A stretch of 35,062 nt of DNA. Origin: a virus. Positions 8,772 through 33,639 of the stretch are shown here, piece by piece. The notes beneath the pieces are model-generated. The model saw nothing but the letters and a program-made list of their open reading frames with translations. It made no database searches and had not been told where the DNA came from. The first letter of the stretch is position 1; every line of letters starts with the position of its first letter. A program made the position numbers and the translations under genes. The DNA is taken from the IMG/VR virus record IMGVR_UViG_3300007734_000617, positions 1-35,062 of that record; one strand, written 5' to 3'.

Positions 8772-11107
8772 TGCACAACTTCAACGCCGATAGCTTTACC
8801 GTCAGGGCCGCGAATAATCCGCTTCTTCGCAGTTGCGGCCGACATAACATTGTCCATTTTCTCCATCGTTGCGTTTTGCATATCGTTCATGTTTTGGTGC
8901 ATTGCTGCTATAGTTTGCAAAGCGTTTTGCACATTATCGCCAAGCTCCGAGGCTATACGGTCACTTGCTGCCGTAGCTGCTTCAACCAAAGGCACATCCA
9001 CGCCCGGATTTGCACCGATCCGCGCAACCAAGACCTTCGTCGCAGCCTCAAGTTCCGCTTTCCAACGGTTAAATTCATCTTCTTGCGCTGCGGTCTGCGC
9101 CTTCATCGCCATTTCGTGCTGCATTTTCTGATCTTCAATCTGAGCCTGCATCTGAGCCAGTTGCATCTCGGCCTGAATCTTGGACTGGTGCATTTGCCCA
9201 TCGAGCTGCGCTTTCATCTGCGCTGCCTGAGCGTCTGCCTGCACCCGCATCTGGTCGGATTGTGCTGCGGCTTGCATCTTGGCCTGCTCTAGCTGCTGTT
9301 GAGCCTGGAGCTTCATCATCTCGGGATCAGGGCGCTGTTGCGGGTTCTGTTGGCTTGCAGCGGCTTTCTGCTTGATCTGCTCCAGCGCCACGTCTAGCGT
9401 GCCTTCAATGGCTTTGGCTTGCTTGAACCCGCCCACGCCAAACTTCATCAGTTCCACAAGCATAGGCACGAGTTCTGGTGATTGCTGGCCTACAGGTAAA
9501 GCCTCACGCATGAACGAGCCAAACGCGGTCAGAAACTCCACGCGGTCTTTCTTGTTCTGTTGTTGGTCAAGTTGGACCAGGCTGTCCGCGTCCACCTCAA
9601 TTCGGAAGTTACGCAACGGACTATCTTGCAGCAGCATCAAGGCTTGCGGAACTAGAGCTTGATCTGCCTCGCTCATCTGTTCCGCAGCGGCGTATTCAAG
9701 AATTGTTTTAGGCTGGAACTTAGAGCAAATGACCTGCGCTTTTAGCCGAATAAGCTCGGAAGCAAACAGAGCTACTTCCTCCTGCATACTGCGAAGCCTC
9801 AGACCGGCATACTGACCTTTGATCTGCTGCGCGGTAGCGGTTTCGGAAGCGGCAGTCTGACCCCTAATAATGTCTGAAATGCCCGTAATCTCGTAAATCT
9901 GTCCTTTAATATCCTCTCGCGCCCGGTAGCATTGCAGCAAGGCGTTTGACAGTACATCTAGCGGCAGCAGGTCAATACTGCCCTTCAACCCGCCCTTTTC
10001 GCTAAACGCCATCCATTTGTCAACTGGGATTAATGCGTTATTCTCGCCTTCTGTCAACAGCCTTTGCAAGCTAGGTTGGCTGGCGTCATAAACACCTCTA
10101 ACCCGCAGCGCTTTAACCAGCCCGTCAATGCGATCTGAAAGGATGTCTAGTTCGTTTGCTTGGTCCTGGTACAGGATGAAGTCAGGAACCGGAACAAGCG
10201 TGTCCGATGTCATCGTCGCATACAAAGGCGTGGCGCAAGGGAAAAAACCTTCTAACTCTAGCGGATCGTCGCGCTCATCAATCAGGGTAGGATTGTTCTT
10301 GGACAGCCAGTAGACCTTGCCGGTTTCCTTGTCCCACAGCTCGCATATCTTGGCGCGGGTGCGTTCTTTCGTGCTTTGCCCGTAATTGGTAAGCGTTTCG
10401 GGGCCAGAATCCAGCGCAATAGTCTTGGCGGTTTTCTCGCCAAATCGCTCGATTAGAGCTTCTCGGCTCATGTACACCCACCGCCAGACGCAGGTTACTT
10501 CTTCCCAAGTTCGAGCGACAGAATGCCCAAAATCCTTCCAATGAACGTAGTCGGTAGGGGCGCACTCGTACTCAATTTCTTCCTGGGGTTCCTCGCCAGC
10601 GGTGTAGTCCTCGCTTTCCGGAGCACCTTCAGGGGTTTGACCTTCGGCTGCCTCATTCTCTACGTCCTCCGTAACCTGCAAACCATCTTCAGGAATGTCC
10701 TGCTGCCGAACGTGCGGCTCGTACCGTACCCAAGCAACCCCGCGACCGCCGAGAAACCTATCCTCGACCGCGTGTTTCATGGTCGCCCGAAAATCAGGGT
10801 AATGCTCAATCTCAAAGTCTAGGGCGCGTTCAATAAGCTGCCCTGCCACCCGTCCTACGGGGTCATTATCGCCAAAACGCCGTTCAGCCACCGCTTTAGG
10901 CAGCTTGGCATAAACAGCAGGGATAAGCGTCTGGACGTTAGACCAAAGGATATTAAACTTGGCGGTTTCGTTCGTGTGCTGGCTGCGGTTGTCGTCGCGG
11001 TAACGCTTAACAATCTTAGTTGTCCGCGCCTCCCACTTCTTAAACTCGTTGTCATAGCTTGAAATGACGTTAAGCCATTTCTGTACGCCGGTGCTGGTCG
11101 GTTCCAT
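8768..11107 (-). CDS. Portal protein
   Basis: A 779-residue protein, long like the portals of P22-type podoviruses. The N-terminal third contains RYRDDNRSQHTNETAKFNILWSNVQTL-like sequence typical of this portal family, followed by an acidic low-complexity insertion near residues 140-180. The middle carries YQDQANELDILSDRIDGL and GQIYEITGISDIIRGQ, typical of the portal stem and wing region. The C-terminal 150 or so residues are a Gln/Met/Ala-rich coiled coil with near-repeats such as MQAQIEDQKMQHEMAMKAQ, likely a barrel. Start overlaps the upstream stop as TAATG. Confidence 0.85.
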   Translation of the reverse strand: MEPTSTGVQKWLNVISSYDNEFKKWEARTTKIVKRYRDDNRSQHTNETAKFNILWSNVQTLIPAVYAKLPKAVAERRFGDNDPVGRVAGQLIERALDFEIEHYPDFRATMKHAVEDRFLGGRGVAWVRYEPHVRQQDIPEDGLQVTEDVENEAAEGQTPEGAPESEDYTAGEEPQEEIEYECAPTDYVHWKDFGHSVARTWEEVTCVWRWVYMSREALIERFGEKTAKTIALDSGPETLTNYGQSTKERTRAKICELWDKETGKVYWLSKNNPTLIDERDDPLELEGFFPCATPLYATMTSDTLVPVPDFILYQDQANELDILSDRIDGLVKALRVRGVYDASQPSLQRLLTEGENNALIPVDKWMAFSEKGGLKGSIDLLPLDVLSNALLQCYRAREDIKGQIYEITGISDIIRGQTAASETATAQQIKGQYAGLRLRSMQEEVALFASELIRLKAQVICSKFQPKTILEYAAAEQMSEADQALVPQALMLLQDSPLRNFRIEVDADSLVQLDQQQNKKDRVEFLTAFGSFMREALPVGQQSPELVPMLVELMKFGVGGFKQAKAIEGTLDVALEQIKQKAAASQQNPQQRPDPEMMKLQAQQQLEQAKMQAAAQSDQMRVQADAQAAQMKAQLDGQMHQSKIQAEMQLAQMQAQIEDQKMQHEMAMKAQTAAQEDEFNRWKAELEAATKVLVARIGANPGVDVPLVEAATAASDRIASELGDNVQNALQTIAAMHQNMNDMQNATMEKMDNVMSAATAKKRIIRGPDGKAIGVEVVQ

Positions 11108-15647: not shown

Positions 15648-16853
15648 TTATGCCGCTTTCTTCAATGAAATGAAAGGCTTACCATTTGCTTCTAGCGTTG
15701 CTGTCTGTCCTGTGAATTCTTGCCACCTTTGGACGATTACATCGCAGTACTTGGGGTCTAGTTCCATGCTGCGGTTGATGCGGCCTGTTTTCTCGCAGGC
15801 TATTAGGGTAGAGCCGGAGCCACCGAATAGGTCGAGGACAATGCAATTAGCAACGCTGCTGTTTTCAATAGCCCTTTGACACAATTCAACGGGCTTCATT
15901 GTTGGGTGAGTCTTGGCGTCTTTTGTCCGATCACAGTTCCAAAGCGTTGTTTGCTTCCTGTCTTTTACTCTAACTCGACCGCTACCTTCCTTCCATCCAT
16001 AAAGACAAGGTTCATTTTGCGAATGATAATCCCCCTGCGACATGGTTAAGGTTGGTTTTACCCATTGAATAGTAGATGGACGGGCTTGATGAAAGCCAGC
16101 AGATCGAAAAGCACTAATAAACTCTAAAGCTGTTATGTCGGCGTGCCACACATAAACATTGCTTCCGGGGTGAAGAACAGAATAAGCGCAAACAAAAGCG
16201 TCATGCAAAAACTCTTGTAACTTTGCGTCTTTCAAATGATCGTTTGGAACACCCTCGTAATCCACGCCATAAGGCGGGTCTGTGTGAAGCATATTTGCTT
16301 GTTCCCCATCCATCAGCCTCTCAACCGCATCAATGCTTGTCGAGTCCCCGCACATCACCCGATGCTTGCCTAGCAGCCAAACGTCCCCCAAGACGGTCAC
16401 AGGGGCTTCAGGAACGTCCGGTACAGCATCCTCGTCTGTCAGCCCCTCCGTCCCTGTCGGAGCCAGCAACGCCTCAATCTCGTCGGTGCTGAAGCCCGTC
16501 AGGTCTAGATCGAAACCCATGTCCTTCAGATCGGTAAGCTCCACCGCCAGCATTTCATCGTCCCAACCCGCATTTAAAGCTAGCTTGTTATCTGCAATAA
16601 CGTAGGCTTTCTTTTGCGCTTCTGTCAGGTGAGTCAGTCTGATGCTAGGAACGTCAGTAATCGCTAACTTCCGCGCCGCCATTACCCGTCCATGCCCTGC
16701 AATGATGCTTCCGGTCTCGTCAATCAAAACGGGATTGGTGAAGCCAAATTCTTTAATGCTTGCGGCTATTTGCGCAATTTGATTTTCAGAGTGAGTGCGG
16801 CTATTCCTGGCATACGGAATCAGCTTGTCAATCTTAACTTGTTCAATGTTCAT
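15648..16853 (-). CDS. ParB/Srx nuclease-like domain fused to DNA N6-adenine/N4-cytosine methyltransferase
   Basis: A 401-residue fusion. Residues 1-100 form a ParB-like domain with LIPYARNSRTHSENQIAQIA and IIAGHGRVMAARKL (GHGR at 53-56). After an acidic linker (about 130-150) comes the methyltransferase: catalytic TDPPYG (191-196), then LDLFGGSGSTLIACE (339-353) as the SAM-binding loop. Catalytic-before-SAM order indicates a beta-class amino-methyltransferase. Such fusions are common next to phage terminase genes. It probably methylates phage DNA to avoid restriction; the recognition sequence is unknown. Start overlaps the 55-residue gene as ATGA. Confidence 0.88.
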   Translation of the reverse strand: MNIEQVKIDKLIPYARNSRTHSENQIAQIAASIKEFGFTNPVLIDETGSIIAGHGRVMAARKLAITDVPSIRLTHLTEAQKKAYVIADNKLALNAGWDDEMLAVELTDLKDMGFDLDLTGFSTDEIEALLAPTGTEGLTDEDAVPDVPEAPVTVLGDVWLLGKHRVMCGDSTSIDAVERLMDGEQANMLHTDPPYGVDYEGVPNDHLKDAKLQEFLHDAFVCAYSVLHPGSNVYVWHADITALEFISAFRSAGFHQARPSTIQWVKPTLTMSQGDYHSQNEPCLYGWKEGSGRVRVKDRKQTTLWNCDRTKDAKTHPTMKPVELCQRAIENSSVANCIVLDLFGGSGSTLIACEKTGRINRSMELDPKYCDVIVQRWQEFTGQTATLEANGKPFISLKKAA

Positions 16854-17379: not shown

Positions 17380-17491
17380 TAGAAGCTCCGAGGGCTAAAG
17401 GTATGCTGGCTGCTACCAGCCCCCGGCGCAAACGTGCGTTGGTCATCAACGTCACGGCCAGCACATTCACCGAAGGGGGAGGACGGTGAGT
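17380..17491 (-). promoter_or_regulatory. Structured 5' leader of the late transcript
   Basis: No gene is visible between the late promoter and the ATG at 17379. The transcript would contain at least three hairpins in a row: CACCG...CGGTG, then CGTTG-ATGAC-CAACG, then GCTGG-TAGCAG-CCAGC, followed by GGAGCTTCT ahead of the start codon. This could regulate translation or antitermination, or simply protect the 5' end. No known riboswitch class was recognised. Confidence 0.45.
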
Positions 17492-18968: not shown

Positions 18969-19319
18969 TCATGTTGTTACTCCTTTTTGTGCCGGTATTT
19001 TTATACCCGCGTGATGACTCGCTGCATTCAACCATTCCAGCCACTCCGAAAACCGCTTTTTACCGTACCTGCTCGTCCTTCTGCCTAACATCACTACCCC
19101 GCCCTCAAGCCCTGGCGCAAGTCTGGGTGCTGTTTCGCCCTCAAAGGTCGCAGTCAGTACATTTTTCCAATCTTCGTCGGTTAGCCAGCACATAACCCCG
19201 TTAACAGGCCATTGCTTTTGTTCAGCCCAAGCTCGCAAAATAGGCCATTGCAAAGCGTTTTGCCCTGCGTTTCTCCGTTCCTCGCAAACTGGGCATAAAG
19301 TTACAAAGGCGATTGTCAT
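18969..19319 (-). CDS. ninB: NinB-like recombination protein
   Basis: A 116-residue protein. NALQWPILRAWAEQKQWP, then LTDEDWKNVLTATFEGE, then LAPGLEGGVVMLGRRTS, and the helix RFSEWLEWLNAASHHAGI match NinB (lambda Orf), a recombination mediator that binds single-stranded DNA and helps load recombinase. The N-terminus has an unusual CPVCEERRN. I chose the ATG at 19319 because it overlaps the upstream TGA as ATGA; an ATG at 19334 is possible. Confidence 0.8.
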   Translation of the reverse strand: MTIAFVTLCPVCEERRNAGQNALQWPILRAWAEQKQWPVNGVMCWLTDEDWKNVLTATFEGETAPRLAPGLEGGVVMLGRRTSRYGKKRFSEWLEWLNAASHHAGIKIPAQKGVTT

Positions 19320-20686
19320 TTCAATAATCTCCATGCTGTTTCTGCCACTCTTGGAACTTGTCCGTTTCCAATGGCTTTAAGTCTGTCCATTCTAGCGGCC
19401 ACCCCATTAGCTACACGAGGAACGGCATCTTCCCAGCTACCATTTTTCCAAGCCGTTTTGCCGTAGTGTGCCAAAAGTCGTGACAATGCTTGCATAGTGT
19501 CTGAATATTCTCGGGTTTGTTGTAAGTCTTGTTTTGGTCTATGTGGTGCGCTTGTAATGCTTTCACATAACCGCACGCCTCGCATTTCTTCTTCAAGTGC
19601 TTTCGCGCACGCCATGAATAACCGTGCTTCGTCAAATCGATGCGCGTGTTCGCACAATTTAGCGAGCAAAATCGCCGCCTCTGAAATGCCGACAAATCTT
19701 CCAATCTCCCGTTGAATCTCTTGCGCTGCATGACCGTACCGCAACACTCGCATAACTTCGTTTTTTCTGCCTTGCGCTCCATTATTCATCCCCATAAACC
19801 AAAAACACATTTTAACATGGCTTATGGGTTGTATGGAACTCCATTCATCAGGCCAGCCCATCATTTTTTCAACCCACGTTGGGTTCAGTTGGCCAGAGTT
19901 TTGATCCACCGATTGACTCAGCATTATTTGTTTCCCTATTGCAATCCGGCGTTGAATTGAAGGATTGCTCATATTCCCCCGATCCCGATTGTCGGATGCT
20001 GTAGGTGTTGGAAACCTCCGCAGCGCCACCGTTGCTGCTAATGTTGGCGTGTTTCTGAGGAATTTCGATGGAGATGCTGCTTCCTTTGCATTGTGTGCTG
20101 TTGGCGTTGGCCAATTTTCCATGCGTTTCTTGAGTGCCTTCCGACTGTTGCTCCCTCCGTCTAATCCCCCTGTCGTTGGCGTGTGGAAAAAAGTTTCGTC
20201 GTTCGGCTCTGATCCAAATTCGCTCTCTAAGATGGGGCGCACCAACGTCTGCCGCTGATACAACTCCCCACTTTGCATCAAACCCCAGCGCGGCAAGGTC
20301 ACAGAGGACGGTTTCAAGTCCTCGAATAGTGAGCATTGCGCTGTTTTCAATGAATGCGTACTGGGGTCGTACCTCCCCAATAATCCTTGCCATGTGTTTC
20401 CACATTCCTGATTTGCTTCCGGTAATGCCTGCGCCTCTACCTGCTGAGCTGATGTCCTGGCAAGGAAAACCTCCCGATACGACTTGCACAATTCCTCGCC
20501 ACGGCTTTCCGTCAAAAGTTTGAACGTCATCCCAAATCGGAAAAGGCGGGAGAATGCCGTCATTTTGTCTTGCGACAAGTACGCTTGCGGGATAGGGTTC
20601 CCACTCAACTGCACAGACGGTTCGCCAACCGAGCAGTTTTCCCCCGAGTATGCCTCCTCCAGCGCCCGCGAAAAGAGCCAGCTCAT
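19316..20686 (-). CDS. Overlapping-frame partner of the cytosine methyltransferase, carrying its C-terminal motif X
   Basis: A 456-codon frame starting four bases after the methyltransferase ATG (ATGAATGAG). Over 820 bp it is read in a second frame of the same DNA. It looks genuine: SYREVFLARTSAQ, THSLKTAQCSLFEDL, LPRWGLMQSGELY, NWPTPTAHNAKEAASPSKFL and LNPTWVEKMMGWPDEW form a conserved pattern seen in phage methyltransferase loci. Residues 301-425 are the shadow of the HNH gene. The last residues, RLKAIGNGQVPRVAETAW, are methyltransferase motif X, normally in the other frame. It may form a split enzyme with the 273-residue protein. Whether the full 456-residue product is made is unknown. Confidence 0.65.
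   Translation of the reverse strand: MSWLFSRALEEAYSGENCSVGEPSVQLSGNPIPQAYLSQDKMTAFSRLFRFGMTFKLLTESRGEELCKSYREVFLARTSAQQVEAQALPEANQECGNTWQGLLGRYDPSTHSLKTAQCSLFEDLKPSSVTLPRWGLMQSGELYQRQTLVRPILESEFGSEPNDETFFHTPTTGGLDGGSNSRKALKKRMENWPTPTAHNAKEAASPSKFLRNTPTLAATVALRRFPTPTASDNRDRGNMSNPSIQRRIAIGKQIMLSQSVDQNSGQLNPTWVEKMMGWPDEWSSIQPISHVKMCFWFMGMNNGAQGRKNEVMRVLRYGHAAQEIQREIGRFVGISEAAILLAKLCEHAHRFDEARLFMACAKALEEEMRGVRLCESITSAPHRPKQDLQQTREYSDTMQALSRLLAHYGKTAWKNGSWEDAVPRVANGVAARMDRLKAIGNGQVPRVAETAWRLLK
19411..19782 (-). CDS. HNH endonuclease nested in the methyltransferase locus
   Basis: A 123-residue protein in a third frame. The N-terminal zinc finger is LCECCGTVMQRKRF with RRFCSLNC. The catalytic part is KKCEACGYVKALQAHHIDQN followed by NIQTLCKHCHDFWH, the HNH signature. 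It lies in a roughly 454-nt insertion just where the methyltransferase frame ends. Directly after its TAG, the same frame reads LMGWPLEWTDLKPLETDK, a second copy of the motif found before the gene. A selfish homing endonuclease is the likeliest role. Confidence 0.8.
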   Translation of the reverse strand: MERKAEKTKLCECCGTVMQRKRFNGRLEDLSAFQRRRFCSLNCANTRIDLTKHGYSWRARKHLKKKCEACGYVKALQAHHIDQNKTYNKPENIQTLCKHCHDFWHTTAKRLGKMVAGKMPFLV

Positions 20687-20690: not shown

Positions 20691-20911
20691 ACCCCCTCAA
20701 ACATTTCTTGTTGACCCTGCGGAATTGAATACTTCGCAACCCGCTTACCAGACGGTACGGTAATCATTTCAACCCTGACCGGATGTCCCTGTTTAATCAA
20801 TTCCCCGCACCTTTGACTTAGCGCATACACCCCATAACGGCTCAAAGCATCTGCAACTGTCAGACTTTCGCCACGCCTCATTGCCTCCAAAAGCTGCTCG
20901 CATTGGTTCAT
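20687..20911 (-). CDS. Small helix-turn-helix protein
   Basis: A 74-residue protein. CEQLLEAMRRGESLTVADAL, then SRYGVYALSQRCGELIKQGH and PSGKRVAKYSIP form a winged helix-turn-helix of a type common in phage (HTH domain with a K-R-V-A-x-Y strand). ATGA overlaps join it to both neighbours. It may regulate transcription or act with the replication or methylation module. Confidence 0.75.
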   Translation of the reverse strand: MNQCEQLLEAMRRGESLTVADALSRYGVYALSQRCGELIKQGHPVRVEMITVPSGKRVAKYSIPQGQQEMFEGV

Positions 20912-21090
20912 TTTTCTTCCCCCAAAAAGTTAACAACGTCTAAAGCTGTGGATAACTTTAACGATTTCAAAACGCTTGGCAGTAACTTAGGTTCTGTTTT
21001 TTTAATGCCGACCAACGTCATTGCTTTTGACTGCACACCACAATTCTCCAAACACCTAACCCAATCTTCAACCCTGTTGGCGGGGTTCAT
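20908..21090 (-). CDS. Small hypothetical protein (60 residues)
   Basis: Starts with NPANRVEDWVRCLENCGVQS at the ATG at 21090, which overlaps the replication gene stop as ATGA. An upstream ATG at 21168 is also open but would overlap the zinc-cysteine end of the replication gene. The peptide ends LSTALDVVNFLGEEK and looks helical. No family recognised. Confidence 0.6.
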   Translation of the reverse strand: MNPANRVEDWVRCLENCGVQSKAMTLVGIKKTEPKLLPSVLKSLKLSTALDVVNFLGEEK

Positions 21091-21935
21091 CGCTTGTCCC
21101 AACACGTTCCGCACATCTTTCCCTGATTTGTTTCCGTAAAGCCGCGCAGGATACCCCCGCAAACGCAACAGGACAGCTTTGGCGGGGTGAACGAGGGCTT
21201 CCCTTGCCCTACCCCTTGCTTAACCTCGAAAAGCCCGCTCCAACCGTTTTCGACGCTTTGCGTGATTATTGCGGCAATGTCTTTTCCTTCAGCTTTCCAG
21301 CGTTCGAGTTTATTGATGGCGGCGGTTTGAGCTGTTGCGGTTAAAGGTTTGCGCGATTCTTTCCGGTGCTGCGTGTAGGTTTGCCAGCTTGGAGGAAGCC
21401 AATCCGGTGCTTCAGCACCTGCGGGTTTGACTTTAGGTTTATCTTGGTTATTGGTTATTGGTTGTTGGTTAATGGTTATTGGTTGGTTGCACGTCTGTTG
21501 AACGTCTGTTGAACGGACGTTGAACGTCTGTTGAACGGACGTATTGAGTGGCAATAGGGGGGCAATAGGGAGGGTATTACCTTTCAAGTCCACTTGAAGT
21601 CCACTTGAAGTACCGTTGCTTCTACGTTCAGCCGAAACTTTACCGGCCTTAGAAGCCTTATCAACTTTGCCTTTAAAATGGGCTATTTCTTTATCCGCAC
21701 GTTTGTTAATAAACCCTGCTTCTGTGCGGGTAAAAAATTCATTGATAACAATTTCAACTTCTTTTTCGTAATCGCGCATCCCGATTAAACGGGCAGCAGC
21801 AGATAAATCCAACGGGATCGGCAGCTCGGACAAGTAATACTTGTCAAGCAATCGCCTGTAGGCGCAATCTTCAACTGGGTTCAGGTGGCTGGCGTGACTT
21901 GAATAGTCGCCAATATGAAACGTGTAATAGTGCAT
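21087..21935 (-). CDS. DUF1376-type replication protein
   Basis: A 282-residue protein. The start HYYTFHIGDYSSHASHLNPV followed by EDCAYRRLLDKYYLSELPIP is the conserved DUF1376 domain, seen in phage replication modules in the position of lambda O. The ATG at 21935 has GAGGAG six bases upstream. A low-complexity linker (about residues 115-165) is encoded by tandem DNA repeats that may be the origin. Near the C-terminus are AINKLERWKAEGKDIAAIIT and a zinc-like CCVCGGILRG...CGTCW. It probably binds the origin and recruits host helicase. Confidence 0.75.
   Translation of the reverse strand: MHYYTFHIGDYSSHASHLNPVEDCAYRRLLDKYYLSELPIPLDLSAAARLIGMRDYEKEVEIVINEFFTRTEAGFINKRADKEIAHFKGKVDKASKAGKVSAERRSNGTSSGLQVDLKGNTLPIAPLLPLNTSVQQTFNVRSTDVQQTCNQPITINQQPITNNQDKPKVKPAGAEAPDWLPPSWQTYTQHRKESRKPLTATAQTAAINKLERWKAEGKDIAAIITQSVENGWSGLFEVKQGVGQGKPSFTPPKLSCCVCGGILRGFTETNQGKMCGTCWDKR
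21444..21485. repeat. Heptamer tandem repeats (TTGGTTR), candidate origin element
   Basis: Six consecutive 7-bp units on the plus strand: TTGGTTA, TTGGTTA, TTGGTTG, TTGGTTA, ATGGTTA, TTGGTTG. Seven is not a multiple of three, so the repeat is a DNA-level pattern rather than a peptide repeat. It lies in the linker-coding part of the replication gene, next to the 11-bp repeats. Confidence 0.8.
21491..21545. repeat. 11-bp tandem repeats, candidate origin iterons
   Basis: Five consecutive 11-bp units: ACGTCTGTTGA twice, ACGGACGTTGA, ACGTCTGTTGA, and a diverged ACGGACGTATT. Adjacent units also make a near-palindrome, ACGTCTGTTGAACGGACGT. The period is one DNA turn and not a codon multiple, as expected of protein-binding iterons. 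Confidence 0.8.
21550..21571. repeat. 11-bp direct repeat pair (GGCAATAGGGR)
   Basis: Two adjacent 11-bp units, GGCAATAGGGG and GGCAATAGGGA. Part of the same repeat block inside the replication gene. Confidence 0.75.
21586..21607. repeat. 11-bp direct repeat pair (AAGTCCACTTG)
   Basis: Two identical adjacent units AAGTCCACTTG. Each with its flanking C or G forms CAAGTCCACTTG, a palindrome except at its two central bases. Third 11-bp family of the block. Confidence 0.75.
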
Positions 21936-22043
21936 TTTTCGCTCCTCTATAAGCATTATCTGGTCGGGTAGCCTTGATAGAGCAAGGCAGGCGCGATCAA
22001 CGCCGTTCCCCGGTTGCAGCCGCATTTCTGCGGTAAAAACAGT
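21936..22043 (-). other. Spacer between regulator and replication genes, with GAAA hairpin
   Basis: No coding sequence is convincing here. On the minus strand CCGCA-GAAA-TGCGG (22031-22018) forms a perfect hairpin with a GNRA tetraloop shortly after the regulator stop. No U-run follows, so it is not a standard terminator. It could be a processing or protein-binding site. Confidence 0.4.
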
Positions 22044-22229
22044 CTACGTCTTGTACACGGATGAATCAACCAATAGTTTTTGCTCTGTCAGCACCTGAAG
22101 CCGGTAAGCCTGTCCTCTAGGGACAGCTCCTTTCTTGACCCAGTACGCCACGGCCTGGACCGAGATATTAAGAGCCTGCGCCAATTGACGCCGGCCACCG
22201 AAGAAATCTACCGCTGTTTGTGTTTTCAT
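22044..22229 (-). CDS. Cro-like helix-turn-helix regulator
   Basis: A 61-residue protein starting MKTQTAVDFFGGRRQLAQAL, followed by NISVQAVAYWVKKGAVPRGQ and AYRLQVLTEQKL. This is a Cro/DicC-type helix-turn-helix with the typical P-R-G-x-A-Y end. I chose the ATG at 22229 because the frame's earlier ATG at 22250 lies within the promoter. The -10 ends seven bases before the ATG, so the transcript may be leaderless, as is cI from the lambda maintenance promoter. It should control the divergent promoters beside it. Confidence 0.8.
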   Translation of the reverse strand: MKTQTAVDFFGGRRQLAQALNISVQAVAYWVKKGAVPRGQAYRLQVLTEQKLLVDSSVYKT

Positions 22230-22235
22230 GTTGTC

Positions 22236-22263
22236 AATATAGCATAACAAAATATATTTGCAA
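22236..22263 (-). promoter_or_regulatory. Promoter of the Cro-like gene (possibly leaderless)
   Basis: On the minus strand TTGCAA (22263-22258) and TATATT (22241-22236) are 16 bp apart. Transcription would begin at or next to the ATG at 22229. Between the two boxes lies the palindrome AAATATATTT (22250-22259), a plausible operator. Confidence 0.55.
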
Positions 22264-22654: not shown

Positions 22655-22728
22655 GTGACATCATTAGTTATGCCTGCGCCATTGGTGCAGTTATCTGTTG
22701 GTCAATCTTAATTTGGGGGAGCAAATGA
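22651..22728 (+). CDS. 25-residue single-membrane-span microprotein
   Basis: The ATG overlaps the preceding stop as ATGA, and the TGA overlaps the ERF gene start as ATGA, so it fills the gap exactly. The peptide starts MSDIISYACAIGAVICW and ends SILIWGSK, a single hydrophobic span with a basic end. The double coupling supports translation. Confidence 0.55.
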   Translation: MSDIISYACAIGAVICWSILIWGSK

Positions 22729-23348
22729 ATAAATCAGAAAGCATTAAGGAGTTGGCAACAGCTCTGGCAAAAGCGCAGGGGGAAATGAAAAACCCTTCCT
22801 TTGACTCTACAAACCCGCATTTCAAATCGCAGTATGCAAGCCTTGCGGCAGTCCGCAATGCAACCGTACCCATTTTGGCTAAGTTTGGCATCAGCGTTAT
22901 CCAACCTCTCACGGCTACTGAACGCGGCGTGTCCTGCGCCGTTATCCTTTTGCACTCCAGCGGCGAATGGATAGAGTTTGCTGGCCTTGAAATACCCGTT
23001 AGCAAAGGTGACGCGCAAGGCATGGTTTCTGCCGCCACTTACGCCAAACGCACGACTTTGCAAGCCTGCTTGGTAGTGGTTGGCGATGCGGATGACGATG
23101 GCAACGCGGCTACCGTTGCAAAGCCGAGTTTGGTTAAAAAAATGGACGGGGTTGAAAAAACCCTGCTGGTAATTGGGGTTGCGCCTACCTTAAAAGACCT
23201 GCAAACGGTTTTTACGGACGCTTACAAGGCAGCGCAGGCCGCAGATGACAAAGCAGCCATGACCATCATTACTGCTGCCAAAAACAAACGCAAGGAACAG
23301 CTCCAGCCAAAAGACGCATTTGTTGCGGAAATGGAGGCAAACCAATGA
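22725..23348 (+). CDS. erf: ERF-family single-strand annealing protein
   Basis: A 207-residue protein starting MNKSESIKELATALAKAQG at an ATG preceded by GGGGGAG. The ERF core is visible: NPHFKSQYASLAAVRNATVP, then FGISVIQPL and SAATYAKRTTLQACLVV. The C-terminal third is Lys/Ala-rich. ERF proteins anneal complementary single strands, working with the exonuclease encoded next door for phage recombination and genome circularisation. The stop overlaps the next ATG. Confidence 0.87.
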   Translation: MNKSESIKELATALAKAQGEMKNPSFDSTNPHFKSQYASLAAVRNATVPILAKFGISVIQPLTATERGVSCAVILLHSSGEWIEFAGLEIPVSKGDAQGMVSAATYAKRTTLQACLVVVGDADDDGNAATVAKPSLVKKMDGVEKTLLVIGVAPTLKDLQTVFTDAYKAAQAADDKAAMTIITAAKNKRKEQLQPKDAFVAEMEANQ

Positions 23349-23962
23349 AGGTTATTACCGCAGAGCAGGGTAGTCCTGAATGGCTTGCAGCTCGCGCAGG
23401 AAAGGTGACCGCCAGCATGATCTCAAATGTATTGGCAAAGCCTGAAACCGCGGCTTACAGGGATTATCAAGCGCAGATCGTCGCGGAATTGCTTACCGGC
23501 AAACCACAAGGCAGCGATTTTACCAACGCCGCTATGGAGTTTGGGACAGAGCAAGAACCGTTCGCCAGAAGCGCCTACGAGGTTTCTAGAGGCATCATGG
23601 TCGATGAGGTGGGCTTAGTCCTACACCCGACTATTGACCGCGCTGGAGCCAGTCCTGACGGGCTGGTGGGTAGCGATGGGCTGGTAGAAATTAAATGCCC
23701 AAAGGTTGCTACGCACTTGTCCTATATCTGCGCCGGTGTAGTCCCAACAAAGTACAAAAACCAAATGCTTTGGCAAATGGCTTGTACGGAACGGCAATTC
23801 TGCGATTTTGTTAGCTTTAGACCTGACTTGCCCGAACATTTGCAATTGTTTGTAGTTGAATTCAAACGTGACGAAGCAAAAATTAAAGAACTTACTACCG
23901 CCGTCAATTCGTTTTTGGCACAAGTTGATGAAATGCTCACTAAATTAAAAGGAATTAAATAA
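23345..23962 (+). CDS. YqaJ/lambda-exonuclease-type recombination nuclease
   Basis: A 205-residue protein. EQGSPEWLAARAGKVTASMI at the start, then FGTEQEPFARSAYEVSRG, the catalytic SPDGLVGSDGLVEIKCPK (Asp and EIK), and YKNQMLWQMACTERQFCDFV. This is the YqaJ viral recombinase fold, which digests one strand of double-stranded DNA. It overlaps ERF by ATGA, giving a classic exonuclease-annealase pair. Confidence 0.87.
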   Translation: MKVITAEQGSPEWLAARAGKVTASMISNVLAKPETAAYRDYQAQIVAELLTGKPQGSDFTNAAMEFGTEQEPFARSAYEVSRGIMVDEVGLVLHPTIDRAGASPDGLVGSDGLVEIKCPKVATHLSYICAGVVPTKYKNQMLWQMACTERQFCDFVSFRPDLPEHLQLFVVEFKRDEAKIKELTTAVNSFLAQVDEMLTKLKGIK

Positions 23963-25106: not shown

Positions 25107-25284
25107 AGACGAAACAGACGCAATGGTGGAGGCGCACCGTGAGGCATCATGGCGGCATGGGTTCCTATGCGGGTTCGCGTGGGCTGCGCTGGCGGTGATC
25201 CTTGCTGCGGGTATCTGTGCAGTATGGGTGACAGCGCATCAACCTGCGAAGGTAGACATCCTCAAACTGGAGAAGAAGAAATGA
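25099..25284 (+). CDS. Small single-span membrane protein
   Basis: A 61-residue protein starting MNKDETDAMVEAHREASW. One membrane span, FAWAALAVILAAGICAVWV, sits in the middle, followed by a short basic end. The ATG at 25099 overlaps the previous gene by 8 nt. It is not placed with the lysis genes and may act on the host envelope early in infection. Confidence 0.6.
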   Translation: MNKDETDAMVEAHREASWRHGFLCGFAWAALAVILAAGICAVWVTAHQPAKVDILKLEKKK

Positions 25285-25829
25285 TGCTGCTAGGCGAAAC
25301 ACCGTACACACCTTGTTACGTTCGCAACGAGTTTTTGTTTAACGAGCAAAAAGGTTTTGGTGCATTTACGCCAGCAGTAGTCTTTGCATTTCGCGCTGAA
25401 CCTGCTCGTGTCCCCATGTTCCAGGTCATGCTTGAGTCAGGGGCGCAATGGGCTAGAGTACCCATACACATGATTTGCAGCAAACCTTGCGAGTCTTTGC
25501 CTATTGAACAAGTTTGCTGGTGGGATAGCTACGGCTATGAATTCTCCGTAGTTGCTCTGCCGTTCCTCAAAAACCATGCCGTTACAGCTCTAGGCCGGGA
25601 TAAGGTTATCCGCAAAGGAAACTATCTGTTTACCGTGGATTGGATGAAAACAGGCTACAGCGAGATATCTGACCAGCACAAAAACCACCATATTATTGCG
25701 CTGGAATCAGGACAATGGATTGCTTACCCGAACAACCGCTTAATTTGGCACGACGAGTCTTGGATAACACCCGCGCCCAATAAAGAATGGCAAACGCCTA
25801 CGCATAATTATTTTGTTGAAGGCCGTTAG
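25281..25829 (+). CDS. Conserved phage protein of unknown function
   Basis: A 182-residue protein starting MMLLGETPYTPCYVRNEFLF. The ATG at 25281 overlaps the upstream stop as ATGA. Highly conserved-looking segments include GAQWARVPIHMICSKPCE, VCWWDSYGYEFSVV, VIRKGNYLFTVDWM and HKNHHIIALESGQWIAYPNN. I recognise it as a recurrent early phage protein without assigned function. Its stop shares the bases TTAG with the oppositely directed endolysin stop. Confidence 0.75.
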   Translation: MMLLGETPYTPCYVRNEFLFNEQKGFGAFTPAVVFAFRAEPARVPMFQVMLESGAQWARVPIHMICSKPCESLPIEQVCWWDSYGYEFSVVALPFLKNHAVTALGRDKVIRKGNYLFTVDWMKTGYSEISDQHKNHHIIALESGQWIAYPNNRLIWHDESWITPAPNKEWQTPTHNYFVEGR

Positions 25830-30448: not shown

Positions 30449-32083
30449 TTACCTTTCGTTTCTTGTTGGCTGTTGTTCTGCCAATACTCTAGCCAATTGA
30501 GCGTTTATCATTGCACTTTGTTCCGGTGTATTTTCTGGAATAGTAGCCAACATTTTAGCCATTTGTCCGGGTTCATAATTGGGTTGAGCCATTAAACGCT
30601 GATATGGTTTTGACAAAACAAGCGAACGAGTAGGCCCACTAAGAAGCGGTAATGCAGCCCCAATTGCTCCGGCTACAGGGCCACCAGCAAGCAATCCACC
30701 GCCGCCAAGTAACGTAGCAGCAAGAGCTTCGCTTTTACTTACGCCTGGAGAAGGAACTTGTGTTGCTTCCCTTGTATATGGAGAAAATGCTTCTGAAAAT
30801 TTTGCTACAGTTGATAAATCACCCGTAAGAGGCGCACCCTTATCTAAAGCAGACCCTAAAACCCTAGCATCAACATTGCCATTTGCTACATTTAACGCAT
30901 CTTCTACGTTATAAGATTTAGCAATCAACATTCTTGCTTCTTTAAGTTTATCAACCAATTCTGGTTTATTAGCTTTTGCAGCTTGGTTTTCTATAACTGT
31001 TTCCAACATATCAGCTTTATTTTTTAACTGATTAGCCGCCTCTAAAATTTTAGGATCACCTTGCATATTGTAATGTTTCATTGTCGTTCTTGCGTCAAAC
31101 CTAGCTTGTTTTAGCTTTTCTAATGCTTGTTCCGCAATGGGCGACAAATTGGCTATATTTTGATAAGCGGTTCCTGCTTTAGCCCTAACATTGTTTAATT
31201 CTTTTATAGATATTGCTGTATTTTCTGGAATGCCTAAATCAGAACGAACCAATGCGTTTGTAGCTTCTTGATTTCTTATTTGAGATTCTTGCGTTGTGGC
31301 TGCTTTCCCGCCAATGCTTTCTAATCGTTTATTTATAAATGATGGATTTATGATTGAAGGAGGAACTACATACCCCGCTTTTTGTCCGGCATTTAATACT
31401 TCATCACGCAAAGCATTTCTTGATTGCTGGTCTTGTAAAGATTGGATATTTTGCCTGCTCATTGCACCTAATTTTGATGCAGCCATTGGCGTTGCTAATC
31501 CAGCAGCCATAGACCCTACATCACTTCCTGTTAGCTCTTTTACACCGCCAGCAGCGGAACCAGAAGCACCACCAATAGCTAATGCTTTTATAAGATTTGA
31601 TACGGATGATTGCGGATTTATCGCAGCTCCTGTTGCTCCTTGCACCCCAATATCTAATATGCGCTGCCCTGTTGTTACAGGTTCAAATTGCGGTTTAATA
31701 AACCCCATTGCAGACATTGCTTTGCGAGCATAGTCAGGGTTTTCAGTTAGTTCTGGCGCTAAATCTGACCGACCTAAAGCAGTTGCCGCAGTTCCGTAAG
31801 CAGCCTTACTAAGATTTATTAAACTATTAGGTGTGTTTAACAAAAAATCAGGAACACCTGCTATACCTTTGTTTGCCGCGTTTATGCCAACTTGCAAATT
31901 AGATGGAATTGGTTTTACTTCTTCTTTTGGTAAAGATTTTCCACCATCAACATTTGAAATTGTTTGATTTGGAAATTCTTGCGTAGCACGTTTAATTATT
32001 TCATCAGCCGTTACGGTATCAGGTGCATTTTGATAAACATGATTTGTTCCATCTCCAAAAGTAATTGTAATATTTTTTGACAT
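30449..32083 (-). CDS. Internal virion (DNA ejection) protein
   Basis: A 544-residue protein from the ATG at 32083, which overlaps the upstream stop as TAATG; a TTG at 32089 is less likely. The N-terminal ITITFGDGTNHVYQNAPDTV recurs in phage ejection proteins. Helical and Ala/Gly-rich segments follow (AIGGASGSAAGGVKEL, LLGGGGLLAGGPVAGAIGAA), with long central helices. It is unusually AT-rich for this genome. Likely one of three proteins that form a channel across the envelope. Confidence 0.7.
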   Translation of the reverse strand: MSKNITITFGDGTNHVYQNAPDTVTADEIIKRATQEFPNQTISNVDGGKSLPKEEVKPIPSNLQVGINAANKGIAGVPDFLLNTPNSLINLSKAAYGTAATALGRSDLAPELTENPDYARKAMSAMGFIKPQFEPVTTGQRILDIGVQGATGAAINPQSSVSNLIKALAIGGASGSAAGGVKELTGSDVGSMAAGLATPMAASKLGAMSRQNIQSLQDQQSRNALRDEVLNAGQKAGYVVPPSIINPSFINKRLESIGGKAATTQESQIRNQEATNALVRSDLGIPENTAISIKELNNVRAKAGTAYQNIANLSPIAEQALEKLKQARFDARTTMKHYNMQGDPKILEAANQLKNKADMLETVIENQAAKANKPELVDKLKEARMLIAKSYNVEDALNVANGNVDARVLGSALDKGAPLTGDLSTVAKFSEAFSPYTREATQVPSPGVSKSEALAATLLGGGGLLAGGPVAGAIGAALPLLSGPTRSLVLSKPYQRLMAQPNYEPGQMAKMLATIPENTPEQSAMINAQLARVLAEQQPTRNER

Positions 32084-33639
32084 TACCAATTACTCCTTCC
32101 TGGAGTGACTGTAGTATTCAATTTAATAATTGGACTATATGGAAATTTAACACCTCTTTGAACAGCTCCTTGTACTTCATCATTATGCAATGATATTTTT
32201 TGCCTCATTGAATCTGCATACGCATCAAGAATTTTAGGCAAAGCGTTAGGATCGGTTCCAAGATTACCAAGCGATTCTTGCATAATAGCTTGTTGACTTT
32301 GGCTAGGCGAAGCATCCATTTTCTTTAAATTATCCATAATATTAAAGAAAATTCTAGTTCTCAAAGTTTCTGCGTCCGTTACTCCGGTTGTTGCTATATT
32401 TGTTCCCAATCTGTTGTTTAACAATTTAGCGGCGTTTAACAATGGTTCGCCTCCAGGCCCCATAAATTGTTTAGCATTAGGAATAAGTTTTTTAGCTTCT
32501 TCAATATTTGCAAGTAAAGTTGGAGCTTGTTTTAATTGATCATACGTTGCTCTTGTACTCTTCATAAAATCTTTTTGCGCTTCTTCACTTGCAGGAAGGT
32601 AAGCGGCAACATTAGTTATATTTTTGTTTGCTTCTGGATGCGAAACTAATTTTGCAATTTGAGCATTAAATATTGCTTTACCTTGTGGGCTATTTGGATC
32701 AATACCAGCACCTGAAATAGCAGAATTTAACGCCCTTGTTTGTTCTGGAAGCTCTGGTGGTTTTTCGTAGGGCTTATTTCCTTCTCCCATTGGTCTTATT
32801 ATTTCACGACCAGAAGAATCTCTAATTACTTTCACAAATGAACCATCTTTTAATTGTTGTATTTCTGCATGACCAGTTCCGAATGTTGGTTTATTTATTT
32901 CAGAATAATCTTTTGCTAATTGTTCTGTATAAGATTTGCCAGTTGGATCAGAAGCTAACCATACATTCATCGGTTGACCACCTGCTGGCCCACCAAATAA
33001 TGAAGTAGCACTAGCAGTAGTTAAAGGCGCATTAGAAGCAGTAGGGACATTAGGCTTAATAGGACTTGTTGCGGCAGGAGGCATTGCCGGCATTGATGCG
33101 GCAGGTTGATTTGCGGCAGGTGCAACGCCTAATCCACCGGCTGTTTTAAACGCGTTTATTTGTGCTTCGCGTTGTAGTTGTTGCATTCCCATTGGAGCAA
33201 GTGCCGGATGTTTAAAATATTCCATTGCGCCAGCTTGAGGATTGGGAGCAACAGCAGGCGTAGCAGCCACAACAGGCATTGGATAGCCTTCATCATCAAC
33301 CCGCGTAACTGGTTGTTGTTCTGCAACAGCAGGTTTACCTGCCGTTAATTCCGCAGATCGTCCGAGCGTTGATATAAGGTCGGATTGATATTTATCACCC
33401 AACGCCTTTTCTTCCTCCAGCCCTTTCTTTTGCATCATCATGCCGGTGAAACCTTGCAGCATTTTAGCAAGCCCTGCCGTAGCGGGAATGCGAGCCTCTA
33501 TGCCGTTATAACTGAACCGTTCGTTTGGCTGCATAGATTGCGCTTGGAGCATTTCAGCCATCTTCTGCTGCTGCTCAATGCGCCGCTGCTCCGTCTGGTA
33601 CGGACTGGGGACGTTAAAAGCGACCGTGGTATTTGCCAT
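32083..33639 (-). CDS. Internal virion (DNA ejection) protein, large
   Basis: A 518-residue protein. SPYQTEQRRIEQQQKMAEML and GLAKMLQGFTGMMMQKKGLE near the start are typical of phage internal core proteins. The middle is Pro/Ala-rich and low in complexity, and the C-terminal half is helical (FFNIMDNLKKMDASPSQSQQ). The first third has ordinary base composition; the rest is AT-rich, suggesting a recombination join inside the gene. Confidence 0.68.
   Translation of the reverse strand: MANTTVAFNVPSPYQTEQRRIEQQQKMAEMLQAQSMQPNERFSYNGIEARIPATAGLAKMLQGFTGMMMQKKGLEEEKALGDKYQSDLISTLGRSAELTAGKPAVAEQQPVTRVDDEGYPMPVVAATPAVAPNPQAGAMEYFKHPALAPMGMQQLQREAQINAFKTAGGLGVAPAANQPAASMPAMPPAATSPIKPNVPTASNAPLTTASATSLFGGPAGGQPMNVWLASDPTGKSYTEQLAKDYSEINKPTFGTGHAEIQQLKDGSFVKVIRDSSGREIIRPMGEGNKPYEKPPELPEQTRALNSAISGAGIDPNSPQGKAIFNAQIAKLVSHPEANKNITNVAAYLPASEEAQKDFMKSTRATYDQLKQAPTLLANIEEAKKLIPNAKQFMGPGGEPLLNAAKLLNNRLGTNIATTGVTDAETLRTRIFFNIMDNLKKMDASPSQSQQAIMQESLGNLGTDPNALPKILDAYADSMRQKISLHNDEVQGAVQRGVKFPYSPIIKLNTTVTPGRSNW

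Follow-up and report, generated by a model that had tools for sequence, protein, structure and literature searches.

We describe here a putative phage replication origin that lies within the coding sequence of its own initiator. The DNA is a 35,062-bp stretch of a virus (IMG/VR virus record IMGVR_UViG_3300007734_000617), which we refer to, at its full length, as 'the window'; it carries portal, terminase, tail and lysis genes and, on the minus strand, a gene for a 282-residue protein of the DUF1376 (YdaU) family. About 170 bp of this gene consist of two adjoining arrays of short tandem repeats, one of 11-bp and one of 7-bp units, and from the sequence we put the probability that they form the origin at roughly 85%. 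Both arrays are beyond what the protein sequence imposes, and both occupy the linker between a predicted winged helix and a C-terminal domain. The class of the 11-bp unit is associated with a short basic motif in the protein, and in a considerable share of the relatives the next gene encodes a helicase or helicase loader. The best reading, by analogy, is that the stretch would work like the origins of lambda O and pSK41 Rep, with iterons of 11 bp. The gene and its parts are laid out as follows:

21087 to 21935, minus strand: DUF1376 (YdaU-family) gene, 282 residues, identified by its match to PF07120, by PHROGs and by a start shared with relatives
21681 to 21932, minus strand: N-terminal domain, a predicted winged helix (PF07120 match, AlphaFold model, comparison with PDB structures)
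21621 to 21659, minus strand: basic motif KASKAGKVSAERR (residues 93-105), which closes helix 78-108; proposed specificity determinant
21486 to 21606, minus strand: eleven contiguous 11-bp units in a single register; probable iterons
21585 to 21606, minus strand: iteron units 1-2, AAGTGGACTTS, with inverted half-sites (4+2+4); also present in relative L002
21552 to 21573, minus strand: iteron units 4-5, of CCCTATTG type (GGCAATAGGG on the plus strand)
21486 to 21540, minus strand: iteron units 7-11, class A (AACGnnCGTT type), adjoining the 7-bp array
21444 to 21485, minus strand: six 7-bp units, TAACCAA/CAACCAA on the coding strand and TTGGTTR on the plus strand; probable DNA unwinding element
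21090 to 21437, minus strand: C-terminal part, residues 167-282, with its first 65-70 aligned residues conserved in relatives, and ending in CxxC...CxxC

On the coding strand the order is thus domain, KASKAGKVSAERR, eleven 11-bp units, six 7-bp units and, from residue 167, the C-terminal part. The 11-bp array occupies 21606 to 21486 and is joined directly by the 7-bp array, which starts at 21485. The protein sequence of the linker is unconserved, modelled with low confidence, and rich in Q, N, T and P. We place the start of the gene at 21935, where the matches of relatives begin; an in-frame ATG upstream, at 22025, is a possible alternative. The encoded protein matches PF07120 over residues 2-85 (E 9e-21, 74.4 bits against a cut-off of 30.1; 77 bits in a second scan), and this is the only Pfam family found at E <= 0.01; the RepA_N profile (PF06970) gives no match. 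It also matches PHROGs families named 'primosomal protein'.

A preliminary description of the window had reported four families of 7- and 11-bp repeats inside a replication gene and proposed them as a candidate origin. All four are present, at 21444-21612, in a gene that, as a correction, is on the minus strand. The proposal is supported, with the amendment that two distinct elements are involved, the 7-bp repeats being a probable unwinding element and the 11-bp repeats probable iterons. The units are also somewhat less uniform than described: five of the six TTGGTTR heptamers are exact and one reads ATGGTTA, and of five 'ACGTCTGTTGA' units three have that form and two read ACGGACGTTGA. What was called a mix of three distinct 11-bp families does comprise three families, and together these form one phased array. 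Tandem Repeats Finder reports period 7 at 21444-21484 (5.9 copies), period 11 at 21486-21537 (4.7 copies), a 22-bp super-unit with 100% matches at 21497-21542, GGCAATAGGGG at 21550-21570 (1.9 copies) and AAGTCCACTTG at 21586-21611 (2.4 copies).

The chance of such repeats arising from coding sequence was estimated with 2000 synonymous-codon shuffles of the window gene, which leave the protein unchanged. The best local self-match score at a lag of 11 bp is 20 in the gene and at most 16 in the shuffles, and at a lag of 22 bp it is 24 and at most 15, so that none of the 2000 reaches the observed value in either case; the score of 22 at lag 7 is equalled by one shuffle. Total matches over the 170 bp give the same result for lag 11 (97 versus a shuffle mean of 62.7) and lag 22 (77 versus 52.6), again with 0/2000. 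By this measure lag 7 is not unusual (58 versus 55.5, reached by 698/2000), because the 7-bp array fills only 42 bp. The pattern TTGGTTNTTGGTT, with one mismatch allowed, occurs six times in the window, five of them within the array, and none of 100 shuffles reaches six. Exact AACGnnCGTT occurs once in the array and once elsewhere in the window, at 17431; the unit is therefore not rare, and it is the array that is rare.

The two periods recur throughout the family. Scans with the domain alignment provided the best 80 of at least 594 confirmed viral loci and the best 80 of 85 confirmed genomic loci, making 178 genes with those collected earlier; removal of near-copies and of four genes shorter than 150 residues left 129. 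In the linkers of these, 80 genes exceed the cut for self-match at lag 7 (synonymous shuffles: mean 6.9, maximum 12) and 29 exceed it at lag 11 (mean 0.55, maximum 3). Lags of 14, 21, 22 and 28 are likewise raised, lags of 8-10 are at zero, and lags of 6, 12, 18 and 24 are slightly raised (16, 15, 8 and 7 genes versus 11.6, 9.2, 5.0 and 2.5 in shuffles). The domain-coding part of the same genes is near zero (two genes at lag 11, one at lag 21), and none of 380 neighbouring open reading frames (ORFs) of at least 150 residues passes at lag 7 or 11. Upstream of the 7-bp array, identical 5-mers are found 11, 22, 33 and 44 bp apart in 617, 263, 208 and 101 pairs, versus 171, 82, 105 and 40. Twelve genes of named phages, which were not re-screened for near-copies, were added to give a set of 141, from which L013 (C-terminal part only) was excluded; at a strict cut, 92 of the 141 show period 7 or 11. 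Because neither 7 nor 11 is divisible by three, the constraint acts on DNA, and the preliminary claim of selection at this level stands: the periods are independent of frame across 129-141 genes and absent from the neighbouring ORFs.

The family also emerges when the DNA alone is searched. Viral contigs were scanned for 7-bp arrays, for two class A units, for class E arrays and for two class B units (the classes are defined below), and only newly fetched loci were counted: 119/120 stretches for the 7-bp array, 103/120 for class A, 62/64 for class E and 119/120 for class B. The 7-bp, class A and class B sets are samples, and their figures hold among the matches listed. Of the 119 7-bp array loci listed, 114 fall in an ORF that matches a custom DUF1376 profile, three in ORFs cut by a contig edge and two in ORFs unrelated to DUF1376 (L222, at 5971, and L278, both with AACCANN arrays). 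PF07120 was found in 0/14 control genomes, from which nothing is drawn, since the set may include E. coli K-12, itself a carrier of the family.

A looser cut detects the 7-bp array in 95 of the 141 genes, where it is sited at 48% of gene length. Its GC content is 0.34 versus 0.47 for the gene and lower in 91/95 cases; its coding strand has an A+C content of 0.85 versus 0.53 elsewhere, higher in 95/95. The corresponding figures for the window are 0.32 versus 0.48 and 0.88 versus 0.53. A stability profile averaged over 150 nucleotides on each side has its minimum at the array (-1.20, versus about -1.46 in the preceding iteron stretch), and this is probably the profile of a DNA unwinding element. 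The period of the second array varies with lineage, from 7 to 6 in some and to 5 (AAAGT type) in 17 of 21 Lin1244-like loci, a related group discussed below; this suggests that the sequence of the array counts for less than its softness and strand bias. A G-quadruplex on the T/G-rich strand was considered and rejected: the units of some relatives are of AAACAAT type and have no CC pairs, and runs of G are unconserved.

The 11-bp units contain inverted half-sites of 4 bp, whose class matches the short basic motif that follows the predicted winged helix. Three pairs are distinguished: class A (AACGnnCGTT) with AGKASAxxR, class B (TGCGnnCGCA) with SAxxRW, and class E (AACCCA/TGGGTT) with GGRP. 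Both the categories of motif and the classes of iteron were initially drawn up from the protein-selected survey of 141 genes. In it, AACGnnCGTT is present in 61/78 genes with GKASAxxR-type motifs (shuffles, 10.2), in 0/27 with GGR, 0/14 with RW and 1/22 others; AACCN5GGTT is present in 20/27 GGR genes (shuffles, 3.3) and in none of the remainder, including 0/78 GKASA genes; and ATGCN4GCAT is present in 8/14 RW genes (shuffles, 2.4) and 3/78 GKASA genes. A hexamer pattern in the GKASA genes is not above expectation (7/78 versus 6.3). Over the three codon phases the class A palindrome has 42, 3 and 57 sites, and in the two main phases it encodes NxRS or STxV. After refinement of the calls, no gene combines the motif of one class with the iterons of another.

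The correspondence is not complete. With the cruder survey categories, two GKASA genes have the class B palindrome only and one has both A and B, and two 'other' genes have class A; with the refined calls, 29 genes that have a motif lack a callable class (12/18 RW, 10/77 SAxxR and 7/27 GGR) and four without a motif have one (three A, one B). Betaproteobacterial genomes contribute a further pattern: in L110, L111, L120 and L127, GGCATGCC-like units follow an NKRW motif, in some cases succeeded by 6-bp ACCAAC arrays, and these units are probably another iteron class.

The DNA-only scans provide a second test of the pairing. Class E loci are in DUF1376 ORFs in 58/62 cases, and all 58 of these ORFs have GGR. 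Among the 103 class A loci listed, 67 are in DUF1376 ORFs, of which 56 have SAxxR, one has RW and 10 have no motif; among the 119 class B loci listed, 65 are, of which 64 have RW (three of these also fit SAxxR) and one has no motif. The last count places ORFs that fit both patterns under RW: the stricter pattern gives 61 RW, three both and one none for the 65, whereas a cruder one that tries SA first labels 18 of them GKASA and 46 RW, which tells against the pairing. The other A and B loci listed mostly match a custom Lin1244-like N-domain profile (PF14297), built from ORFs with a GYG-like motif; three of 10 scanned fragments pass the PF14297 cut-off. Among the matches listed, 17/19 class A ORFs of this type have SAxxR and 44/44 class B ORFs have RW.

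A residue of loci fits neither family. Among the matches listed, class A ORFs of this kind number five with SAxxR, one with RW and five with no motif, class B ORFs three with RW and one with none, and class E one with none; the 15 A and B loci, six of them motifless and one a class A locus with RW, also weigh against the pairing (16 and seven when the class E locus is included). Nine further loci listed lie at contig edges (A, one SAxxR; B, four RW and one none; E, three GGR). In 5/103 listed class A and 1/119 listed class B loci no ORF of 60 residues spans the array on the matched strand, and these stand outside the motif tables; two of them, L334 and L364, have a DUF1376 ORF on the opposite strand at the position of the class A/B array. 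With near-copies removed, 134 loci are left, and among the A and B matches listed there are, in DUF1376 ORFs, 37 class A loci with SAxxR and one with RW, and no class B loci with SAxxR and 39 with RW; the Lin1244 counts are 4, 0, 0 and 15. Motifless loci (10 and two in the respective families) are outside these tables. Fisher values for the link ignore common descent and are descriptive. As background, the loose RW pattern occurs in 61/456 C-terminal and 21/423 N-terminal segments, and SAxxR in 0/456 and 0/423.

Structural models place the motif, the proposed specificity determinant, at the end of a long helix. In the AlphaFold model of the window protein, helices at residues 20-36, 44-50 and 54-67 and a wing at 69-76 are followed by a long helix, 78-108; the model confidence (pLDDT) is 92-98 over residues 11-90 and falls from 88 to 73 at the basic motif. 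Its matches in the PDB are mostly winged-helix DNA-binding domains, with Z scores up to 5.4 (all below 8). Initiator chains are not among these rows; comparison by sequence finds one chance-level PDB match (E 0.59), and Foldseek finds nothing in the PDB at E <= 0.001. The model of a Lin1244-like protein, L503, has the same order of elements, and its helix 88-114 ends in SAKKRW. Initiator chains 4pql, 4pt7 and 5kbj are among its top rows (Z 5.9-6.5, root-mean-square deviation 2.2-2.3 Å over 73-74 residues), again with all Z below 8 and with similar matches to CRP and Zalpha domains. These three entries are titled 'initiator', 'DNA binding protein' and 'Rep-DNA complex', and we take them to be pSK41-type Rep. 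Lin1244 (PF14297) resembles DUF1376 in predicted topology and in the motif–iteron pairs of classes A and B, and differs in the period of its second array. Comparison of the two alignments with hhalign gives probability 92 and E 6e-7 and brings the motifs into register, so the two N-domains are probably distant relatives rather than independent inventions.

The window protein matched 12 viral loci, and in the closest of these its two halves have separate histories. Over the first 65-70 aligned residues, the C-terminal parts of L002-L008 are 90-99% identical to that of the window (62/69 to 69/70); their N-domains are just 49-53% identical to it. The repeats have other sequences and the same plan, period 11 and then 7 (6 in L002): L002 has AAGTGGACTTG 11-mers and ACCAGA 6-mers; L003-L007, which are close to one another, have AACCCACCGCT-type 11-mers and GTTAACC-type 7-mers; and L008 has GCCTATAGG-type 11-mers and ACCAAGA-type 7-mers. 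The motif after the domain varies with the repeats, being SAESR in L002, GGRPK in L003-L007 and GAETRW in L008, and the joint of the exchange falls just after the 7-bp array. A conserved linker devoid of repeats, which the preliminary description had named as evidence against an origin, is not found in these seven relatives; rather, the linker protein is not conserved, and the repeats are kept in three other types. Beside GAETRW in L008 are 11-bp units of GCCTAT/ATAGGC type, to which the CCCTATTG pair of the window (21552-21573) is related; these are possibly a further iteron class, and the GCCTATAGGC type of L008 is a candidate for one.

One close precedent is lambda O, where, in the passages cited, an origin in mid-gene has inverted-repeat iterons followed by an AT-rich, strand-asymmetric tract (PMC7466680, PMC5043065). 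The iterons are imperfect inverted repeats in both, and the gene after lambda O encodes a helicase loader, which has a helicase or loader counterpart in eight of the 18 named phages treated below. Run as a control, lambda gives iterons at 0.39-0.48 of the O gene, then a soft purine-rich tract and then P; its lag scores are 12 at 20 bp and 10 at 23 bp, and its tract has a stability of -1.14 and is 95% purine. As repeat anatomy, the window has this layout, with iterons in the gene between N- and C-terminal domains and a soft tract directly beside them, and its sequence has the general anatomy of an iteron origin, direct repeats plus an unwinding element. The units themselves differ. The cited text describes lambda iterons as inverted repeats of 19 bp (PMC7466680). 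Repeats of about 19 bp and of this type are not found in the window, where the period is 11 instead: the four lambda iterons are annotated as 18 bp and spaced 20-24 bp, whereas DUF1376 genes have contiguous 11-bp units with 4-bp half-sites (4+2+4). Nor does lambda have the 7-, 6- or 5-bp tandem array that forms the soft element in DUF1376 and Lin1244 genes. Intragenic repeats of 8 bp are known from pAD1, and heptamers from P1 oriR.

A second precedent is the pSK41 Rep protein, reported in the cited passages to combine a winged-helix N-domain with a host-linked C-domain and to have four Rep boxes in the middle of its gene; in the Rep of pPR9, the N-domain and origin are replaced and the C-domain remains more than 97% identical (PMC5703833). 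This is the same kind of exchange as that between the window and L002-L008. The RepA_N plasmid initiators differ in belonging to another Pfam family and in having another repeat unit, and a DUF1376 gene often precedes a helicase or loader gene. The DUF1376/YdaU proteins themselves appear, in the passages cited, as proteins of unknown function or as entries in tables (PMC5795418, PMC7760358, PMC10044804, PMC8312247), and no origin is described for DUF1376, YdaU or Lin1244/DUF4373 in the literature searched (open-licence PMC, in part).

In 18 named phages (L014-L019 and L300-L311), the gene after DUF1376 is a helicase, primase–helicase, loader or protein P in eight. Pfam identifies it as DnaB in L302 and L303 and as a DnaC/IstB-like ATPase in L310; annotations in L301, L309, L304, L015 and L019 read primase/helicase, DnaB-like, IstB-like or protein P. 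For the next genes of L300, L014 and L016 Pfam finds nothing, for L306 it finds DUF6475, for L017 a sub-threshold match, and for the annotated protein P of L019 no match. Lin1244-like genes have a DnaB_C match in six of 10 next ORFs tested (18 were listed), and in a published table of an Acinetobacter prophage a YdaU family protein stands directly before the replicative helicase (PMC7760358, in the part cited). YdaU-family genes are also present in two circular plasmid records, L314 from P. aeruginosa (52.8 kb), where the gene adjoins a primase/helicase gene, and L315 from Acinetobacter (60.7 kb), both with no listed replicon type; these are probably phage-plasmids. Plasmid typing was rejected as proof of origin function and is only consistent with it, as L314 and L315 look like phage-plasmids and a third plasmid with the gene, pSWBY1, also has repM.

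In the mechanism that we propose, each turn of the DNA would present about one 11-bp unit for binding by the DUF1376 domain and the basic end of its helix, and the bound protein would line up along one face of the DNA as an ordered nucleoprotein array. This array would strain or open the adjoining 7-bp array, one strand of which (A/C-rich or T/G-rich) would be captured, and the C-terminal part, with the product of a neighbouring loader or helicase gene or with host DnaB, would then start theta replication. Placement of the origin in the linker would couple the specificity of the initiator to its site, and we infer that N-domain and repeats are therefore swapped between phages as one origin–initiator module. 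We give even odds to a further proposal, in which the initiator, a winged helix, carries a portable reading head in the form of the basic motif that closes its fourth helix, and a simple code relates the amino acids of this motif to DNA. AGKASAxxR would read AACGnnCGTT, (K/R)xSAxxRW would read TGCGnnCGCA, and GGRPxK would read AACCCA/TGGGTT, at sites set every 11 bp inside the gene. The SA common to the first two would correspond to their common inner CG, and RR/RK versus RW to the outer AA versus TG. Such a code would be common to DUF1376/YdaU and Lin1244 initiators and would move between the families along with the sites.

Other explanations of the repeats are possible. They might be by-products of slippage in a low-complexity linker, serving only to provide a flexible spacer rich in Q, N, P and T. 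The linker is indeed of this composition, unconserved and modelled with low confidence, and such linkers tolerate repeats; yet both periods vanish in shuffles that preserve the protein, no periods are seen other than 7 and 11 and, in some lineages, 5 or 6, and 0/380 other ORFs show period 7 or 11. Also against slippage, the same palindrome recurs, as NxRS or STxV, in chiefly two codon phases, and the class of iteron is tied to a protein motif outside the repeats; we consider this explanation very improbable. Somewhat less so, and still improbable, is control of the operon: rather than an origin, the 11-bp units would be an autoregulatory operator, or an element at the RNA level, bound by the protein itself or by some other regulator of the phage. 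A Cro-like gene is close by, and the link between class and motif would fit any protein that binds its own gene; however, the arrays are in mid-gene instead of at a promoter, they are often succeeded by a strand-biased array that melts easily and, often too, by helicase genes, and lambda O and pSK41 Rep, which share the plan, are origins according to the passages cited above.

That the repeats are instead a recombination hot spot, at which replication genes exchange their N- and C-terminal halves, is a reading prompted by the swaps among relatives, in which an N-domain with its repeats is joined to a 90-99% identical C-terminal part just after the 7-bp array. The 11-bp sequences nevertheless differ between most of the exchanging relatives, which leaves little homology there, and the joint is after the arrays and not within them. 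Half-site palindromes, helical-turn spacing and the motif–class link would go unexplained, and the exchange may itself be a consequence of an origin–initiator module. We regard this, too, as very improbable. An intragenic origin parallel to that of lambda O, as first suggested in the preliminary description, is the best-supported reading, given the recurrence of periods 7 and 11, their absence from neighbouring ORFs and the retention of repeats in the seven relatives.

Several observations weigh against an intragenic origin. At the strict cut 49 of the 141 genes have neither period, chromosomal homologues among them, in which function may have been lost. Two of the three 11-bp families of the window, AAGTGGACTT and CCCTATTG, are not of the class its motif predicts, and the phase is kept; these units may bind more weakly, may be left over from an earlier specificity or may serve as helical-phase spacers. 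For the class A arrays of L319, L378 and L396 and the class B array of L569, which on the matched strand fall outside any ORF of 60 residues, no DUF1376 or Lin1244 gene was identified as their location; the iteron pairs concerned are possibly a second binding site or chance. (L319, whose array is at 9142, also carries a Lin1244-like gene several kb away.) The next gene is hypothetical or something else in 10 of the 18 named phages, and no helicase or loader was recognized among the window ORFs scanned, which were a part of the total. Cumulative GC skew across the window, recommended in the preliminary description as a check, lends no support to an origin; there is a local minimum near 21-22 kb, which is not the global one, and because it coincides with a change of gene strand the skew is uninformative.

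The Rac prophage of E. coli K-12 bears on the question from both sides. Its ydaU gene is annotated as DUF1376 and is followed by ydaV, a gene for a putative ATP-binding protein, and Rac is reported, in the passage cited, to have an active origin, oriJ (PMC3945230). The ydaU linker (L316:2620-3477) contains AACAGGTGTTCAAACAGATGTTG, with two AACAnnTGTT units, a variant of class A, 12 bp apart. To be counted with the adverse points, this linker has no 7-bp array and its 11-bp signal is weak (score 8), and that oriJ lies inside ydaU is our inference, its position in Rac not being given in the cited passages.

If the origin is real, a function would be provided for two Pfam families, DUF1376/YdaU and the Lin1244 N-domain, that we found described as of unknown function or by domain name. 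The origin would become locatable from sequence in a large class of phages and prophages, with a candidate site for Rac oriJ, and nature would supply matched pairs of protein motif and DNA site with which to study how initiators choose origins and how this choice changes in phages. If the code is also true, sequence alone could reveal where hundreds of phages or more have their origins and to which compatibility groups they belong.

Around the DUF1376 gene, an ORF of 60 residues at 20908-21090 (minus strand; MNPANRVEDWVRCLENCGVQSKAMTLVGIKKTEPKLLP...) begins with an ATG that overlaps the DUF1376 stop; Pfam gives it no match, and visual inspection shows a similar sequence following, in a different frame, in L002-L007. 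The Cro-like gene, resembling that of P22, is at 22044-22250 (minus strand), and divergent from it, at 22698-23962 (plus strand), are genes for an Erf-like annealing protein and a YqaJ exonuclease. Thalassomonas phage BA3 and Vibrio phage 1.184.A have their recombination genes and DUF1376 gene in a similar divergent order. Elsewhere in the window are a ParB-like/DNA methyltransferase protein at 15648-16853 and a second methyltransferase-like protein at 19316-20686 (both minus strand), and, at 25149-25829 (plus strand), a match to a PHROG named ferredoxin, of the moron/auxiliary category. The GC content of 30500-33000 is clearly below that of the rest (0.36-0.40), and this region contains an ORF of 546 residues with no PHROG match.

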